Below, piece by piece: positions 1,780 through 36,105 of a stretch of DNA of 40,995 nucleotides. Below the pieces are notes generated by a model. It was not told the origin of the DNA and made no database searches. It saw nothing but the letters and a program-made list of their open reading frames with translations. The stretch is from a virus. Position 1 is the first letter of the stretch. Each line of letters opens with the position of its first letter. The position numbers and the translations under genes were made by a program. The stretch covers positions 1-40,995 of the IMG/VR virus record IMGVR_UViG_3300036791_000631. One strand, 5' to 3'.

Positions 1780-3171
1780 TCACACCGGGTAGCCGCTGGC
1801 GCCCGCCGCATCCGGCGTGCCGACGCGTTCGATGACGATGTTTTTGCTCGCGTCGTCGGGGAACGTGCAGAACGCGCGCACCGCGGCCTCGCCCTGGCCG
1901 CCGCCGTCGATCTTCCACAGATACGGATCGTTCTCGTGCGGGTTGGTGAACTCTGGCGGCACCACGATGTCGCGCAGCACGCACCACGGCGGAGGCATGT
2001 CGGGGCCGAAGTAGAGCGCCGCGTTGAGATGCTGGCCGCGAATCGTCACGCGCTCGATGGTCACATGCTCAGGGGCGCGCTGGATGTAGATGCAGTTGCC
2101 GGTGCCGCCCGTGATGCCCCACGGATCGATCTCCTCGAAGAGCACGTCTCGGATCGTGATGTTGCGGAGCATCCCGCTCTTATGCATGTAGTCGCTGCCC
2201 ATCAGCGAGAGGCAGCCGCCGGCGATGGCGCAGCGGCAGCGCTCGATCAGGACATCTTCCACGCACGCCCACGGCGATCCGCCGTCCTGGTTGCGCGGCG
2301 TGTAGACGTGCGAGTACGCGCCCTGGCCCTCGGCCATGCCTGCGTACCCCATGTCCGTGTCGGCGACGTAGACGTTGCGCGCGTTTTTCAACTCCCACGA
2401 GTTTTTGATCTGCCAGCCCATTTGGAACCACTCGGGCCGCTTGGTGAGCGTGCTGCGCGTGATCCGAATGCTGGTCGGCGTCAGGTCCGACGAGGGCGTA
2501 TCGCCGCCGCCGAACATCACCGCTTCCGCGGCACCGGCGAGATGGCTGTCATCGATCAGGATGTTGCGTCCGCCGACGATGCCGCAGACCGCTTGCGTCT
2601 CCAGCCCCACGCGCCCGATGTGGTCGACGTACGAGCGGCGAATCACGACGCCGGTCCCTTCCGGGCGGATGCCGCGCCGCTGGCCGTAGACCGGATCGCC
2701 GAGACAGGACACCTGATCGATCAGGGTGCGCGTCGCCTCGCGGGTGACCGCCAGCAGTTGGTAGTCGGGGTTCGTGTTCTTAATGCCCAGCCCGAGCACT
2801 CGCTGATCGGGCCCGCGCATACTGACCGTGTCCTCGGCCCCCGACGTGAGCCACACCGGCATGTCGAGGCCCGCGCGGCCGTCGATCTCGTGGTCGGCGC
2901 GCAGCGTGATCGGCTTCGTCAAGATGAACGGACCTTGATACGTCGCCGCCTCGCACCGCACGACCGCGGCCGGCGGCGCGGATTCGAGGATGCTGCGCAA
3001 GTCTTCGCCCGCGTGGACGTAGATGATCTGATCGTCGGGCGGCGTCGGCTGCTGCGCGTCGTCGTACACGTCCCGGAGATGTCGGACGGCTTGCGTATGG
3101 ACGGCGAGCGTCGACTCGACTCGGTCGAGCGCCTCGCCGACGGCGTCGTCGGTCGTGCGCTGTCGTCTCAT
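1780..3171 (-). CDS. Right-handed beta-helix tail protein
   Basis: A 463-residue protein with a short helical N-terminus (1-35) then a long region with beta-helix rungs: repeated ITLRAD, NILIDDS, SIRITRST, NVYVADTD, DVLIERCR, NITIRDV, HVTIERVTI at roughly 20-30-residue steps, as in pectate-lyase-like phage tailspikes and fibres. This suggests binding or cleavage of a surface polysaccharide. No catalytic set can be assigned by eye. The ATG overlaps the upstream stop (ATGA), linking it to the glycosidase-like gene. It is in the late operon beyond the S74 fibre, where receptor-binding accessory proteins sit. Confidence 0.7.
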   Translation of the reverse strand: MRRQRTTDDAVGEALDRVESTLAVHTQAVRHLRDVYDDAQQPTPPDDQIIYVHAGEDLRSILESAPPAAVVRCEAATYQGPFILTKPITLRADHEIDGRAGLDMPVWLTSGAEDTVSMRGPDQRVLGLGIKNTNPDYQLLAVTREATRTLIDQVSCLGDPVYGQRRGIRPEGTGVVIRRSYVDHIGRVGLETQAVCGIVGGRNILIDDSHLAGAAEAVMFGGGDTPSSDLTPTSIRITRSTLTKRPEWFQMGWQIKNSWELKNARNVYVADTDMGYAGMAEGQGAYSHVYTPRNQDGGSPWACVEDVLIERCRCAIAGGCLSLMGSDYMHKSGMLRNITIRDVLFEEIDPWGITGGTGNCIYIQRAPEHVTIERVTIRGQHLNAALYFGPDMPPPWCVLRDIVVPPEFTNPHENDPYLWKIDGGGQGEAAVRAFCTFPDDASKNIVIERVGTPDAAGASGYPV

Positions 3172-4175
3172 AACCACCCCCCGTCGGGCGACATCCCGCC
3201 GTTGCCGTAGCCCCACACCTTCGCGTCGGTGTGGCCGACGTTGTCCACGGTGCAGCAGGCGTAGTAGCCCCGCTGGCTGCCGTCGTCTTCGTTGGGGTGC
3301 TCGCTCCCGCTGCCCCACGGGTCGCCCGTGAACTGTTTGATCGCCTGGTCCTCGCAGAGCCGGAACTTGTGCACGTTGCCCTGCTCCCCGAACTGCTTCA
3401 AGCTGTCGACGATGCGCGCCTGCAGCTCGGGCACGTCCCACTTTGAGTCGGCCTGATAGTCGAGACCGTCGCAGTCGGGCCCCAAGTCGTCCCAGAACCC
3501 GTACCGCCCGCGCGGGTCACCGTCCTCAAACCAGCTCGTATGTTCCGGGTAGAAGTGGCACCAGTTGCTCACGCCGTAGGGGTGCGCGGTCTGCCCGACC
3601 CACTTGACGATCTCGATGGTGGGCGTGCCCGGCACGTTGAAGCTGTCCATCTCGAAGGCGGGGATCACTTCGTCGACGACCTTCGCGTCGAGCAGCGCCA
3701 GCAGCAGCGGGCCGATCCGATCCTGATACTGCTGCGGCGTCATGTCGCGCGGGTCGTAGACCTTGCTCGCCAGCGAGACGACGACGTACTTCATCCCGAG
3801 CGTCTTCAGCAGGCCGCAGTCGTCGACGAATTTATTGAGGCTCGAGTCGCCGCCCACGGGGTCCCAGAGCGCGTTGCTCGCCCAGCGGCACCAGTGCGTG
3901 TAGCCCCGTTCGAGATGCCGGTCGACCATCTGCGGCCACCAGACTTTGCGATCCTGTTTGTAGTCGAGGCCGGTGACGACGCGCTCGGGGTGTTCGCTGC
4001 TGCCCCCACTCGGGCCACCGGGCACCGCGGGGAGTCCCGGACACACCACCGCCCACCAGTCGCCGCGCAGATAGTCGCGCGTGTGCGGCGGCTCCCACGG
4101 CAGCTCGTGGTCGTAGCTCCCGGCCGGCGGCGGCGGGAACGTCCGCACGAGCGGCGGCGGGACGGGCCGCTTCAC
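3168..4175 (-). CDS. Glycosidase-like (TIM-barrel-type) tail protein
   Basis: A 335-residue protein beginning at GTG, with a Pro-rich N-terminus. Strand-like segments repeat through the body: YTHWCRWASN, MKYVVVSLAS, VIPAFEMDSFN, GVSNWCHFYP, KFRLCEDQ. Acidic residues at the ends of two of these strands (E in PAFEMD and E in RLCEDQ) resemble the catalytic pair of clan-A glycoside hydrolases. I infer a glycan-degrading or glycan-binding enzyme exposed on the virion. It overlaps both neighbours by four bases. It might double as the lysis enzyme, since no standard endolysin is found, but that is speculative. Confidence 0.45.
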   Translation of the reverse strand: MKRPVPPPLVRTFPPPPAGSYDHELPWEPPHTRDYLRGDWWAVVCPGLPAVPGGPSGGSSEHPERVVTGLDYKQDRKVWWPQMVDRHLERGYTHWCRWASNALWDPVGGDSSLNKFVDDCGLLKTLGMKYVVVSLASKVYDPRDMTPQQYQDRIGPLLLALLDAKVVDEVIPAFEMDSFNVPGTPTIEIVKWVGQTAHPYGVSNWCHFYPEHTSWFEDGDPRGRYGFWDDLGPDCDGLDYQADSKWDVPELQARIVDSLKQFGEQGNVHKFRLCEDQAIKQFTGDPWGSGSEHPNEDDGSQRGYYACCTVDNVGHTDAKVWGYGNGGMSPDGGWL

Positions 4176-16088: not shown

Positions 16089-17381
16089 CTAGATCAGGCC
16101 GGTGACCTTGCCGAAGGCACCCGGACGGAACACGGCGAGCGCGAGGCGCTCCTCCGCGCGGATCGCGACCAGGTTCTTGATGAAGAAGTCCTGGTGGCTG
16201 TTGCTGGCTTCGACGCGGATGCCGCCGCGGCGGAATACCTGCGACATGGTGCCGAACGCCCCGACGAGCGCGGTGTTGACCGCAATCGACGGCGTCACCG
16301 CAACCGGCGTGCCCCAGACGGAGGCATACGGCAGCGTGCCGAATGGCCCCATGCCGTAGTACTCGCCCGTCGTCGTCTTCGCGGTGACGATGGTGAACCA
16401 ATTCGTCGGGTTCACCACGACGCCATCGGGATAGACAAACGCCGTCGTCGCGATGGCGGTGATCTGCCGCAGAATCGCGTCGACGTTCGTCTCGGGTGGG
16501 GTCGCGGCGCCGTTGCGCACGACCGGGGTCGCGAGGCCCACGCGATTCATCACGCCCATGATGTTGGGCGGCGTGCCGTTGCCATTGAGCAACTGATCTT
16601 CTTCAGCGAGTTGGACACCTAGCGTCAGGCGCGCGTCGATGTAGGACTGGATCGCGGGCGCATCCTCCAGAAGTTCTTCTGTCACGGGGAGCCAGTGCGC
16701 GATCTTCGCCACCGGGTCGGTGTGCTGATCAAACGTCAGCGCCGATTCGGGCTTCGCCGCGCCTTCGGCGGTCGGCGCCGCCGCGTTGGTGTACGCCGTC
16801 TCAATCATGTAGATGATCGCGTTCGACGTCGCGGTGCCGGACGCCATCAGGTCCGCGACCATGAGGCGCTTGAAGAGCACCGGCACGATCCCGGGCAGGT
16901 ACTGCGGGATGATCAGCTTGCCGCCCGACGCGGGATCTTCCGTCAACGTGGTCGCGCGCATCGGGTACAGACAATCCACGGCGGGTGACGCCCACGTGGC
17001 GCTGCGACGATGGAGGCCGTTGCGGAAAAACTGCGAGACGTTCGCGTCTTGGACGAACTGCTGCCCGATGGTGCGGCGCTCCGCCGGGGTCAGGGCGGCG
17101 GGGCCGGTCGGCTGACGGTTGCCGCCGGTCAGCGCCTCGATGCGGGTCCGGAGCTCCGCATCCCCGCGCAAGCCGTCGATCTTGGTTTTGATCGCGGCGC
17201 CTTCGGCGAGGACCGCGTTGATCTGCTGCTTCTCCTCGTCCGTCATCTGGCGGCCGGTCGTCGTGCTGCCGTCCGCGTTGGTGACGACCGCTTCGTCGCA
17301 GCGGTGCGTGACGTCGTTGATCAGCGCGGTCGCCCGCGCTACGACGGCGGCGAGGTCGGTTTCAAGCTGGGCTAGTTTCAT
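16089..17381 (-). CDS. Major capsid protein, HK97 fold
   Basis: A 430-residue protein. Residues 1-110 are a helical scaffolding (delta) domain (ETDLAAVVARATALINDVTH, then EEKQQINAVLAEGAAIKTKI). The rest has family landmarks: KLIIPQYLPGIVPVLFKRLM, AHWLPVTEELLEDAPAIQSY, the E-loop/A-domain region IYMIETAYTNAAAPTAEGAA, and the ending EERLALAVFRPGAFGKVTG. The protease encoded just upstream should remove the N-terminal domain in procapsids. Overlaps the protease gene by four bases. Confidence 0.92.
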   Translation of the reverse strand: MKLAQLETDLAAVVARATALINDVTHRCDEAVVTNADGSTTTGRQMTDEEKQQINAVLAEGAAIKTKIDGLRGDAELRTRIEALTGGNRQPTGPAALTPAERRTIGQQFVQDANVSQFFRNGLHRRSATWASPAVDCLYPMRATTLTEDPASGGKLIIPQYLPGIVPVLFKRLMVADLMASGTATSNAIIYMIETAYTNAAAPTAEGAAKPESALTFDQHTDPVAKIAHWLPVTEELLEDAPAIQSYIDARLTLGVQLAEEDQLLNGNGTPPNIMGVMNRVGLATPVVRNGAATPPETNVDAILRQITAIATTAFVYPDGVVVNPTNWFTIVTAKTTTGEYYGMGPFGTLPYASVWGTPVAVTPSIAVNTALVGAFGTMSQVFRRGGIRVEASNSHQDFFIKNLVAIRAEERLALAVFRPGAFGKVTGLI

Positions 17382-33148: not shown

Positions 33149-33585
33149 TCCGCGCCGTCCTTCTCGTCGGGCGCGGGCATCAGCGCCTTCGGCAGTCTGC
33201 CGGTTTTGTACGCGACCACGAGCTGCGGCGTCACGAGCTCGCCGACGGTCGCATCGCCGGGCATGACGATCTGGGCCAGGAACGCCGAATCGAACGTCTC
33301 GATGCCCGACTCCACCGATTCGAGCTTCGCCTTCAGCACCAGCAGCAGCGCGCGCCACCGCTGGCGTTCGGCCCGCTGAAACCGCGTCGCGCCGAGTTTT
33401 CGCTGGTCGGGCAGACCGACCGTGAAGCGCACGATCCGATCCTGCAAGCGGAACTGCACGCGCGCGGTCAGCGAGTCGTAGTCGACCGCCGTCCCGTACT
33501 GCTTGGCCTTGGCGTTCTCAAGCAGCCGCTCGATCTCGCCGCGCGTCTTCGTGACCGGCACTTCGGTGTACTGCGCGTAGGCCAT
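33145..33585 (-). CDS. Conserved phage protein of unknown function
   Basis: A 146-residue protein beginning MAYAQYTEVPVTKTRGEIER. A helix-strand-strand-helix region (LTARVQFRLQDRIVRFTVGL, RAERQRWRALLLVLKAKLES) and Pro-rich tail are typical of a family I have seen beside DUF1064 genes in phages, but I cannot name a function. It overlaps the nuclease gene by one base. Confidence 0.6.
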   Translation of the reverse strand: MAYAQYTEVPVTKTRGEIERLLENAKAKQYGTAVDYDSLTARVQFRLQDRIVRFTVGLPDQRKLGATRFQRAERQRWRALLLVLKAKLESVESGIETFDSAFLAQIVMPGDATVGELVTPQLVVAYKTGRLPKALMPAPDEKDGAE

Positions 33586-34034
33586 CAGCCCGCCACTTCT
33601 TCAATCACGACGTTGTCCTGCAGTTGCAGCCATTTCCGTTTCAGCTTGTAGACGGCGGTCTGGGTCGCCGGGCGCTTCACGTCGACCACGTGGCGCTTCC
33701 CGGCCTCGAAGAAGACGAAGTCGGCGATGTACTCGCAGACCTGCACCCGCATCCAGCCCGCATTCAGACGCCCCGCACGCGAGACGCCTTTCCGCCGTTC
33801 ATCGTGCAACTGGACGGCGGTGAACAGCGGAAACGCCACCTGCGGCTGCAGCCGATAAATTTCGCCGTGCGCTTGCCGGTCGCGCAGCTTCAGATACACG
33901 TCCCCTTCGGCGCGCGAGTCGAAGATCCGGCCGTCGATCTCCACTTTCACGTTGCGATACTTGCGCGGCTGGTCCGGCGCCGCGGCGCCGGCGATCTGGT
34001 CGCGCGTAATCGTTTCCCAGCCGCGTGTAGCCAT
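33585..34034 (-). CDS. DUF1064-like phage nuclease (PD-(D/E)XK type)
   Basis: A 149-residue protein. KYRNVKVEIDGRIFDSRAEG, VYLKLRDRQAHGEIYRLQPQ, then YIADFVFFEAGKRHVVDVKR contain the restriction-type core: E in 'SRAEG', D in 'YIADF' and D-x-K in 'VVDVKR'. DUF1064 proteins are phage endonuclease/resolvase candidates. The ATG at 34034 lies immediately after the tandem array with only a weak GAAG upstream, so this gene's translation may depend on the array transcript. An ATG 13 codons upstream would lie in the array and is not used. Confidence 0.8.
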   Translation of the reverse strand: MATRGWETITRDQIAGAAAPDQPRKYRNVKVEIDGRIFDSRAEGDVYLKLRDRQAHGEIYRLQPQVAFPLFTAVQLHDERRKGVSRAGRLNAGWMRVQVCEYIADFVFFEAGKRHVVDVKRPATQTAVYKLKRKWLQLQDNVVIEEVAG

Positions 34035-34998
34035 CTTCAGCACTCGACGACACGACAAAACACTTCCCGCCACGACACAACAGTGCTCGGCGACAGATCA
34101 CCTCACGAACGATCCGCACCACACCACGGCGCGACAATACACATCTCGACGACAGTTCACCCCACCACGCCACGCTGCACAGCACTACTCGACGGCACTC
34201 CAGTCCCAGCCGGTGCGCTCCAGTCCCACACACGTCTCGACGGCACGACAGCGCAAGTCACAGAACTACACCCCAACCCAATTCACTACTCGACGCCAGA
34301 ACACTGCGCAACCATCGCACGACAGAACTCGCCGCCACGGCACGACATGGCACCCCAGCGAACTACACATCACAACTCGCCGTCACCTCACGACATCCCG
34401 GCCTCACAAAACGCCACTACACCTCACGGCTCGACGACACATCACTGCAGTTCAGCACCCGACAGCTCCCGCGCACCACAGGCCACGACTCGACGCCACG
34501 CCAGCGCATGATCACGGTCACCGCAACAACACGACGCCCCACGACAACTCTCGACGACAGCGCACCGCACAACCCACGCACTGCAGACCACTACTCGACG
34601 CCACGGCACGTCACCGCTCCTCCAAACAAGACAAGACTCGACGGCACGTCACCTCGGCTCACAACCAGCTCGCGACACGACGCCACGACTCACCTCACAA
34701 CACGGCTCGACGACATCGCACATCACACCAAAGTCACCGGTCAGACCACTACTCGACGTCAGCACACTGCGACGCGGCGCATATCCGACCACGGCTCGGC
34801 GTCACATCAGCCCAGGTCACACCACGACGCGGACAATTCACCTCACGACAAGACTCGACGTCAGGCACACATCACGTTCGGCCACACCACCCGCTCACCT
34901 CACAACTCGACGGCAGCTCAATGCACCAACAAAACAAGGCACATCTCGACGTCAGTTCACCACCACTTCACACCGCGACAGGACAAACCTCGGCGTCA
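34035..34998 (-). repeat. Nested tandem array: CTCGRCGN punctuation with CANNN pentamers
   Basis: This fills the whole gap between two early genes, overlapping the upstream stop codon (TGA) at its far end. On the plus strand 20 copies of CTCGRCGN (two with CTCGCCG, three with CTCGGCG) start at 34043, 34086, 34145, 34188, 34236, 34289, 34328, 34376, 34430, 34489, 34550, 34594, 34637, 34706, 34752, 34795, 34854, 34906, 34945 and 34989. Each interval (39-69 bp) parses into 6-12 pentamers of which, by hand count, about 120 of 155 begin with CA; the other three positions vary. Occasional one- to three-base slips occur. The transcribed minus strand reads NNNTG repeats punctuated by NCGYCGAG. Spacings are not multiples of three, so it is not coding. 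Confidence 0.9.
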
Positions 34999-35397
34999 CT
35001 TCTCCGGCAGCATCGAGCGCACGGTGTCGCCGTCGGTCGCCGACAGTTTTTCCGGCAGCCCGATGACTGATCGCAGCAGCGGCGAGCGCGGGACCGGCGC
35101 CTTCTTCCCGAACTTCGCGACCAGCTGCCAGTACTGCATTTCGAGCTTCGCCACGCTCAAGATGCCTTTAAGCTGCTGGCCCATCTGCTCGGCGATCTTG
35201 CCGGTGATCGCGCGCCGCTCGAGCGCGTCCTGAATCTGTTCGTGCTTTTCAACGAGCGCCACCGTCGTGCGCAGTTGCGGCGCCTCGCGTCTGAGCATCG
35301 GCGAGCTTGGTGCGTCCGTTGACTGCGTCGGCGTCGATGCGTTCGAGGGTGTAGTCGTAGCGTCCTTCGCCGTCGCCGCGTTCTCCGGCGTAGCCAT
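34996..35397 (-). CDS. Hypothetical helical early protein upstream of the array
   Basis: A 133-residue protein. The first 33 residues are Ala/Thr/Ser-rich and disordered; residues 34-110 form helices (RTTVALVEKHEQIQDALERR, then AITGKIAEQMGQQLKGILSV and AKLEMQYWQLVAKFG). GGAGG lies five bases before the ATG at 35397, which decides the start although it overlaps the previous gene by 149 bases. Its stop TGA is the first three bases of the array. No family recognised; a partner of the array is possible. Confidence 0.6.
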   Translation of the reverse strand: MATPENAATAKDATTTPSNASTPTQSTDAPSSPMLRREAPQLRTTVALVEKHEQIQDALERRAITGKIAEQMGQQLKGILSVAKLEMQYWQLVAKFGKKAPVPRSPLLRSVIGLPEKLSATDGDTVRSMLPEK

Positions 35398-36028
35398 GCG
35401 TGCCTCCGTATTCAAAGAGATGATGCAGATCGGTTTCCGAGACGGATCGCCCGAGCACGTTGAGCGTGAACTCGATGATGGCCGGCGGGTCGATGTACTC
35501 GAAGCGCTTCAGGGCGCTGATCGATCCGCCGCGCGGATTGCGGACATGAATCGCCTTGTCGAACGCGCCGTCGGCCGCCGCGATGGGCGTCCCATCTGGT
35601 CGCAGAATCGGCAACCAATAGGCGTGCTTGTCGAGATACACGCCGTTTTTCACCCGCACCGCAAAGGATCGCTCGTTCGCGATGCGGCCCATGAACTGCG
35701 CCGAGATGACGGCGCCGCAATCCTTGACGTGCGCCTTCACCGTGGCCGCGCGCTGCACGAGGAAGCCGTCGTGCTTCTGAAAGACCAGCATCGAAAAACT
35801 TTGATCCGGTTCGCCTTCGCCCCGTCCGAGACTCTCCAGCACTTCTTCGTTGATCTCCTCGATGGACCGCGCGCCCGCCGCGCGCACGCTCGGCTCGCGC
35901 GTCTCGAGCCACTTCTGAATCAGGCCCGGATCCGCCGGCACCGAGGCACAGATCCGCGTGATGAATTCCCAGCGCACGCGATACGCCGTCCACAATGCCA
36001 AGTCCGGGGCTTTCGTCGTCTTCGCCAT
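35249..36028 (-). CDS. Conserved early phage protein with RAMP-like Gly-rich motif
   Basis: A 259-residue protein: AYRVRWEFITRICASVPADP, GLIQKWLETREPSVRAAGA, then a beta-rich body (KDCGAVISAQFMGRIANERS, GVYLDKHAYWLPILRPDGTP, GSISALKRFEYIDPPAIIEF) and a Gly-rich end FEYGGTHGYAGERGDGEGRY. The last motif and the strand order recall RAMP/Cas7-type folds, but the resemblance is by eye and weak. GGAGG lies eight bases before the ATG at 36028; an in-frame ATG at 36109, coupled to the previous stop, would add a hydrophobic N-terminus. It overlaps the downstream gene by 149 bases. Confidence 0.55.
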   Translation of the reverse strand: MAKTTKAPDLALWTAYRVRWEFITRICASVPADPGLIQKWLETREPSVRAAGARSIEEINEEVLESLGRGEGEPDQSFSMLVFQKHDGFLVQRAATVKAHVKDCGAVISAQFMGRIANERSFAVRVKNGVYLDKHAYWLPILRPDGTPIAAADGAFDKAIHVRNPRGGSISALKRFEYIDPPAIIEFTLNVLGRSVSETDLHHLFEYGGTHGYAGERGDGEGRYDYTLERIDADAVNGRTKLADAQTRGAATAHDGGAR

Positions 36029-36105
36029 CGTCATCACCTCCAGTTGCCGAATTGCCGTCGAGAACACGCTCAATCCGCCGATCGCCATCAGTAATTCCCG
36101 ACGTG

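Follow-up and report, generated by a model that had tools for sequence, protein, structure and literature searches.

Proteins with the Cas7-like RAMP fold are known to polymerise along a guide RNA, and in Class 1 CRISPR-Cas systems of types III and VII the Cas7/Csm3 backbone is accompanied by an 8-nt crRNA tag. TIGR-Tas systems resemble the array described below in being tandem arrays of short guides in phages, but they differ from it in the design of the unit. The nearest counterpart is VIPR (Viral Interference Programmable Repeat), reported in a preprint of April 2026, whose main text describes phage RAMPs with guide RNAs built of tandem YNNGG pentamers. In reading the target, these guides use two bases (NN) and pass over a third, in most cases the codon wobble; the systems are directed against competing phages (PMC13142463). 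The preprint counts 667 representative systems and seven types, in which GGY and NN 'or a related consensus' form the repeat, and it mentions staggered arrays whose guides overlap; type II occurs in phage SUSP1 and in a P. fulva prophage, and the SUSP1 system binds double-stranded DNA and has targets on both strands (PMC13142463).

The window (the whole 40,995-nt stretch of viral DNA that was analysed) contains a locus that very probably encodes RNA-guided interference of the VIPR kind. The computational support consists of the array, the linkage of genes to it, a predicted fold, a three-base target step and the nature of the target genes. The locus and its neighbour comprise:

34038..34996, minus strand: guide array, 20 punctuations NCGYCGAG dividing 19 units of 6-12 NN(G)YG pentamers each
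34996..35397, minus strand: gene B, predicted helical accessory protein of at most 133 aa, with the conserved part from 35298 (100 aa), between gene A and the array
35249..36034, minus strand: gene A, 261 aa, predicted RAMP/Cas7-like (Vipr-like) protein, G-loop HGYAGERGDGEGRY
33585..34034, minus strand: DUF1064 / Holliday junction resolvase family gene, after the array, a neighbour not assigned to the system

The first-pass annotation had placed at 34035-34998 an array of CANNN pentamers punctuated by 20 motifs every 39-69 bp and bounded by an upstream stop codon and a downstream start codon. These coordinates are right, and the 20 CTCGNCGN motifs are found from 34043 to 34996, at intervals of 39-69 bases. 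In minus-strand orientation the array begins at the gene B stop codon (34996-34998), which overlaps the first punctuation, and its end adjoins the DUF1064 start codon (34032-34034). The proposed recurrence of CA at a lag of 5 is strong (76 pairs, z = 10.9 against 500 dinucleotide-preserving shuffles of the array region); lags 10, 18 and 23 are also raised against the same shuffles (z 4.0, 6.2 and 5.8), as expected because the pentamer runs are interrupted by the 8-mer. Dynamic programming parses the array into 139 pentamers, 18 hexamers and 20 punctuations, close to the roughly 155 pentamers that had been counted by hand. On the transcript (the minus strand, which is also the strand of the neighbouring genes), each unit is NCGYCGAG followed by 6-12 NNNYG pentamers.

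When the window is pooled with 23 related arrays, two elements of the original description need amendment. Its observation that interval lengths cluster at 8+5k holds exactly for 136 of 211, but another 50 measure 8+5k+1, by way of a single hexamer. Similarly, 827 of the 1006 pooled pentamers begin with CA, and the C is nearly constant (98%), but the A is not absolute (84%, with G in 12%), so that the fixed part of the transcript is YG. All 64 trinucleotides are represented in the pooled pentamers; nonetheless the third variable base is constrained, being G on the transcript in 50-54% of pentamers, and this G is commoner in most GC-rich viruses. The array was undetected by Tandem Repeats Finder, showed no marked RNA secondary structure (fold z = -0.71), and had no match in Rfam, hammerhead families included. 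Its sole recurring constant element is the 8-nt NCGYCGAG; an invariable structured 3' tail is absent.

Gene A is predicted to encode a protein with the CRISPR RAMP/Cas7 fold. Its AlphaFold model (pLDDT 77.6) gives 86 PDB matches at E<=0.001 (best 1.5e-6); the best 50 of these 86 are all CRISPR effector structures (type VII, type III and Cas7-11), with the Cas7/Csm3 subunits of type VII and type III CRISPR matched at prob 1.0, and no Nop-type protein appears among the fold matches listed. The protein matches a viral 'Cas system-associated RAMP' model at 1.9e-12, and its G-loop is kept in 13 relatives. Searches with gene A of PHROGs, PADLOC and NCBIfam gave no match, and that of Pfam a sub-threshold match only; weak Csm4 matches were seen in 5 of 14 relatives (best E 0.018), and genes A, B and the neighbouring genes had no match to a Cas family. 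The model of gene B is helical, of low confidence, and its predicted fold has no PDB match. Genes A and B share up to 149 bases (35249-35397), which are read in different frames and cover the region of the A G-loop; the true start of gene B may be at 35298.

The same arrangement recurs in other viruses. A first search of viral contigs with a pattern of three punctuations returned 48, about 22 of them further examples of the same pentamer architecture and the others different repeats. (Among those dropped were L020, L035 and L047, with 27-mer and 12-mer repeats; L020 10994-11408 and L035 14280-14424 are unrelated 27-base tandem repeats containing CTCGNCGNCA.) Clustering of the surrounding open reading frames showed that two genes are conserved beside the arrays: of 24 loci, 21 have A and 18 have B. 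A search with protein A alone found 51 viral loci, of which 47 have a strong array directly adjoining A on the same strand, three have an array score at background and one lies on a contig that stops just after A. The minimal two-gene locus by which VIPR is recognised (vipr plus one vap) is thus present in viral genomes. Several arrays per virus are seen in one virus family (L066-L069), including four separate ones over 12 kb in L066 (3098-3246, 6613-6923, 8695-9428 and 15268-15521). In the window, the array lies between replication-type genes, the DUF1064 resolvase and a replication-initiator-like protein; no relatives of the DUF1064 gene were found in the scan.

Among cultured phages, no nucleotide relatives were found, and protein A has weak matches only (Hydrogenobaculum phage 1 and a Microcystis phage). 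Hydrogenobaculum phage 1 (L098; 2866-3636 and 3640-4350) encodes a protein distantly resembling A, after which come long non-coding stretches rich in TG that show a weak lag-5 signal; it is possibly a cultured relative. A scan of cellular genomes yielded one locus, in an Elusimicrobia MAG, whose contig (L096, 9000-9900) carries gene A together with a gene resembling B and an array of YG pentamers.

The reading of the variable bases was investigated in 3.0 Mb of phage DNA, with arrays masked and duplicates removed, at target steps of 2 to 5 per unit; the database is enriched in relatives of this phage (capsid and terminase homologues included), and the controls were run on the same database. 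With NN read at step 3, 8 units have matches at E<0.01 and 4 at E<0.001, against 1-2 and 0, respectively, in four reversed and permuted controls; NN at steps 2, 4 and 5 gives 0-2 units at E<0.01 and 0 at E<0.001. (The reading n2n3, like target steps 2, 4 and 5, was rejected as being at or near the control level at strict thresholds.) With NNN at step 3, 9 units have matches at E<1e-3 and 7 at E<1e-4, against 0-2 and 0-1 in four permutation controls. Permuting the third base alone leaves 3-5 units at E<1e-3 and 0-4 at E<1e-4, which argues that most of the signal resides in two bases, with some contributed by the third. Read at three target nucleotides per pentamer, the variable bases match other phages well above control level; the three-base step alone beats the controls, and there is more to the third base than a rule of skipping one nucleotide would allow. 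For the majority of units no target has been recognised so far.

The matches fall at conserved motifs in other phages' genes for the capsid, the terminase, the ParB-methyltransferase and the RAMP, the kind of target in competing phages that is described for VIPR. Within the window, three units are concerned:

34803..34853, minus strand: unit 4, 10 pentamers, 18/20 NN against major capsid protein genes of related phages
34645..34705, minus strand: unit 7, 12 pentamers, 20/24 NN against capsid genes at the motif VQLTEEDQLLNG, weak on its own
34094..34144, minus strand: unit 18, 10 pentamers, 24/30 NNN against the head protein gene of L184 (phrog_240), weak on its own

Besides window units 4 and 7, head protein genes are matched by L016 unit 33, L005 units 2 and 7 (at two motifs in one capsid gene), L044 unit 3, L022 unit 6 and L039 unit 6. 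ParB-methyltransferase genes are matched by L005 unit 13, in which 24/24 bases agree at the DNA methyltransferase motif VTDPPYG, and, in their ParB-like part, by L041 unit 12 and L016 unit 16. L023 unit 11 corresponds to a small terminase, L026 unit 1 to the Walker motif of a large terminase and L016 unit 6 to an exonuclease, while L077 unit 1 matches, at 20/20, the codons for HGYAGERSDG, the RAMP G-loop of gene A, in five other viruses. In the recognisable matches the third base lies opposite the codon wobble position. By a small hand count, limited to matches with an E of roughly <0.01 whose gene was recognised, some 14 of 15 are antisense to the target gene, the exception being L077 unit 1, which runs in the sense direction. 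In scans of 2.9 million contigs, the pattern of window unit 18 found no match, and a perfect NN match of window unit 4 in L319 was set aside as chance, being outside a capsid gene and with about 0.1 expected.

Further evidence comes from guides that are shared between arrays and from sites in the phage's own genome:

34051..34085, minus strand: unit 19, 7 pentamers, a guide common to five arrays, with 20/21 contiguous NNN in L320
16089..17381, minus strand: the phage's own major capsid protein gene, a homologue of the commonest target

Window unit 19 is also present in L023, L044 and L062, and in L038 with one change. Across two shared guides, 2 of 45 NNN columns are variable, as against 10 of 30 YG columns (p = 0.002). 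Taken as 21 contiguous bases (one position degenerate), the unit 19 guide occurs in one contig of 2.9 million, L320, at a site antisense to a small open reading frame; the L038 copy agrees at 21/21 and the window copy at 20/21. The target-bearing phage encodes a Vipr-family protein of its own (L320 902-1717, minus strand; phrog_4652, E 6e-9).

The phage's own capsid gene has near-match sites for units 4 and 7, at 16663 and 16582; unit 4 agrees there at 17/20 NN but at only 1/10 third bases. Over the self sites tallied (window units 4 and 7, two L077 guides and one L066 guide), agreement is good at the first two bases but only 8/48 at the third. This pattern in the sequences suggests, rather than proves, that wobble mismatches may protect the phage itself. 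In L077 (2231-2420, and the array at 2748-3287), the second array has two guides that match the adjoining major head protein gene of the same virus, with the first two codon bases in agreement and the wobble base at 0/8 and 2/9. The smallest array of L066 has one guide that matches, mostly with third-base mismatches, a gene of that genome lying some 0.5 kb from it.

The course of events that we infer from these results, from transcription and processing through binding of one subunit per pentamer to silencing, with a role for gene B, would run as follows. Genes A and B and the array would probably be transcribed together, leftwards, and the array RNA would be taken up or cut into guides, each with the 8-nt NCGYCGAG element and 5-12 pentamers. 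The gene A product, a single-domain RAMP, would coat the guide, one subunit per pentamer, holding the YG (often GYG) bases, while the remaining bases would pair with three target nucleotides per pentamer, strictly at the first two and tolerantly at the third, opposite the codon wobble. Binding would then silence essential genes of competing phages: those for the capsid, the ParB-methyltransferase, the terminase and their RAMP. The evidence favours a combination of two early suggestions, that of a scaffold along which a repeating protein reads in 5-nt steps and that of a variable information array: the adjoining gene A is predicted to be Cas7-like and the variable bases match other phages' genes.

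How does the locus compare with VIPR and CRISPR? Against the main-text description of VIPR (PMC13142463), it shares a phage-borne single RAMP with a G-loop together with one small accessory gene, a guide of tandem pentamers in which fixed and hypervariable bases alternate, a target that advances by three nucleotides for each pentamer, the third lying at the codon wobble, and targets in competing phages, their RAMP genes included. VIPR RAMPs are described as having an RRM core, a G-loop and a thumb, without elaborations; gene A agrees with this in its predicted Cas7/Csm3 fold and its conserved G-loop. Against a profile of seven Viprs, gene A scores weakly but positively (hhalign E 4e-4, probability 35%, 126 columns). 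The SUSP1 vipr gene was placed between its YNNGG tracts (L097 28474-29061); phrog_4652, of the Vipr family, matches SUSP1 Vipr and misses gene A, and the PHROG of SUSP1 Vap1 misses gene B. Relative to that same description, the pentamer here is NN(G)YG rather than YNNGG or alternating GGY and NN, the guide has an 8-nt punctuation and 5-12 pentamers rather than being an RNA of about 100 nt with a folded 3' tail, the third base is partly read rather than skipped, and, unlike those of SUSP1, the guides are nearly all antisense. The claim that no such array was known is out of date, since VIPR has tandem pentamer guide RNAs, with another consensus and a structured tail (PMC13142463). As to membership, then, locus, fold, period and targets fit VIPR as its main text presents it, and repeat consensus and tail differ. 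With Class 1 CRISPR-Cas (types III and VII), the locus shares the predicted RAMP fold, constant elements that flank every variable unit and a constant element of 8 nt; it departs from that class in being phage-borne, in having a 5-nt rather than a 6-nt period, and in lacking conventional direct repeats and other recognised cas genes nearby.

The locus would work like VIPR and, judged by the main-text description, is best filed as a new variant distinguished from it. It could instead be a plain member of one of the seven classified types, the novelty being another genome only, a prospect that falls slightly short of even: the preprint admits 'a related consensus' and staggered, overlapping guides, and its 667 systems may include these arrays (PMC13142463), but neither the NN(G)YG consensus nor the 8-nt NCGYCGAG nor the partial reading of the third base agrees with its main-text description. 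Somewhat doubtful, and proposed here tentatively, is the fuller reading of the locus as a VIPR type beyond the seven described, in which NNN-YG would pair with three contiguous target bases, the third (wobble) base would spare the phage's own gene, and the antisense guides may act on mRNA.

That mRNA rather than DNA is recognised, with antisense guides in a Cas7-like filament blocking or cutting messages as do Csm3 and the type VII Cas7, is rather unlikely. The antisense orientation of about 14 of 15 recognisable matches is consistent with it, as are the solved structures nearest to A, which belong to RNA-targeting CRISPR types; yet the 20/20 match of L077 unit 1 is in the sense direction and so unable to pair with mRNA, and the SUSP1 VIPR binds double-stranded DNA (PMC13142463).

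The earlier proposal of a DNA element with flexible CA steps (a replication origin, partition or packaging site touched by protein at each half turn) received no support and is very unlikely: the array does have a 5-bp period and sits among replication-type genes, but its information is in variable triplets that match other phages' genes, the constant bases of shared guides drift more than the variable ones, and some viruses (L066-L069) have several arrays. Extremely unlikely is an RNA sponge for a TRAP-like ring protein bound through spaced UG dinucleotides, without sequence information. The regular NNNUG spacing of the transcript would suit such a ring, but the adjoining protein is a predicted RAMP, and the variable bases are conserved across arrays and match phage genes; the decoding already contradicts this reading. 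Chance composition or an assembly artefact is negligible, given the lag-5 z of 10.9 and the fact that dozens of contigs, drawn from different samples, share the architecture.

Taken together, these analyses would extend a newly described class of RNA-guided systems, one that has been suggested to antedate CRISPR, to uncultivated phages of a broad group. A second repeat code, in a CRISPR-like layout with a constant 8-mer flanking the units, may bear on the origin of CRISPR arrays. The conservation of triplets in shared guides and the wobble mismatches at self sites make the question of self-avoidance testable, and because the code is readable from sequence, targets of and rivalries between uncultivated phages would become predictable.
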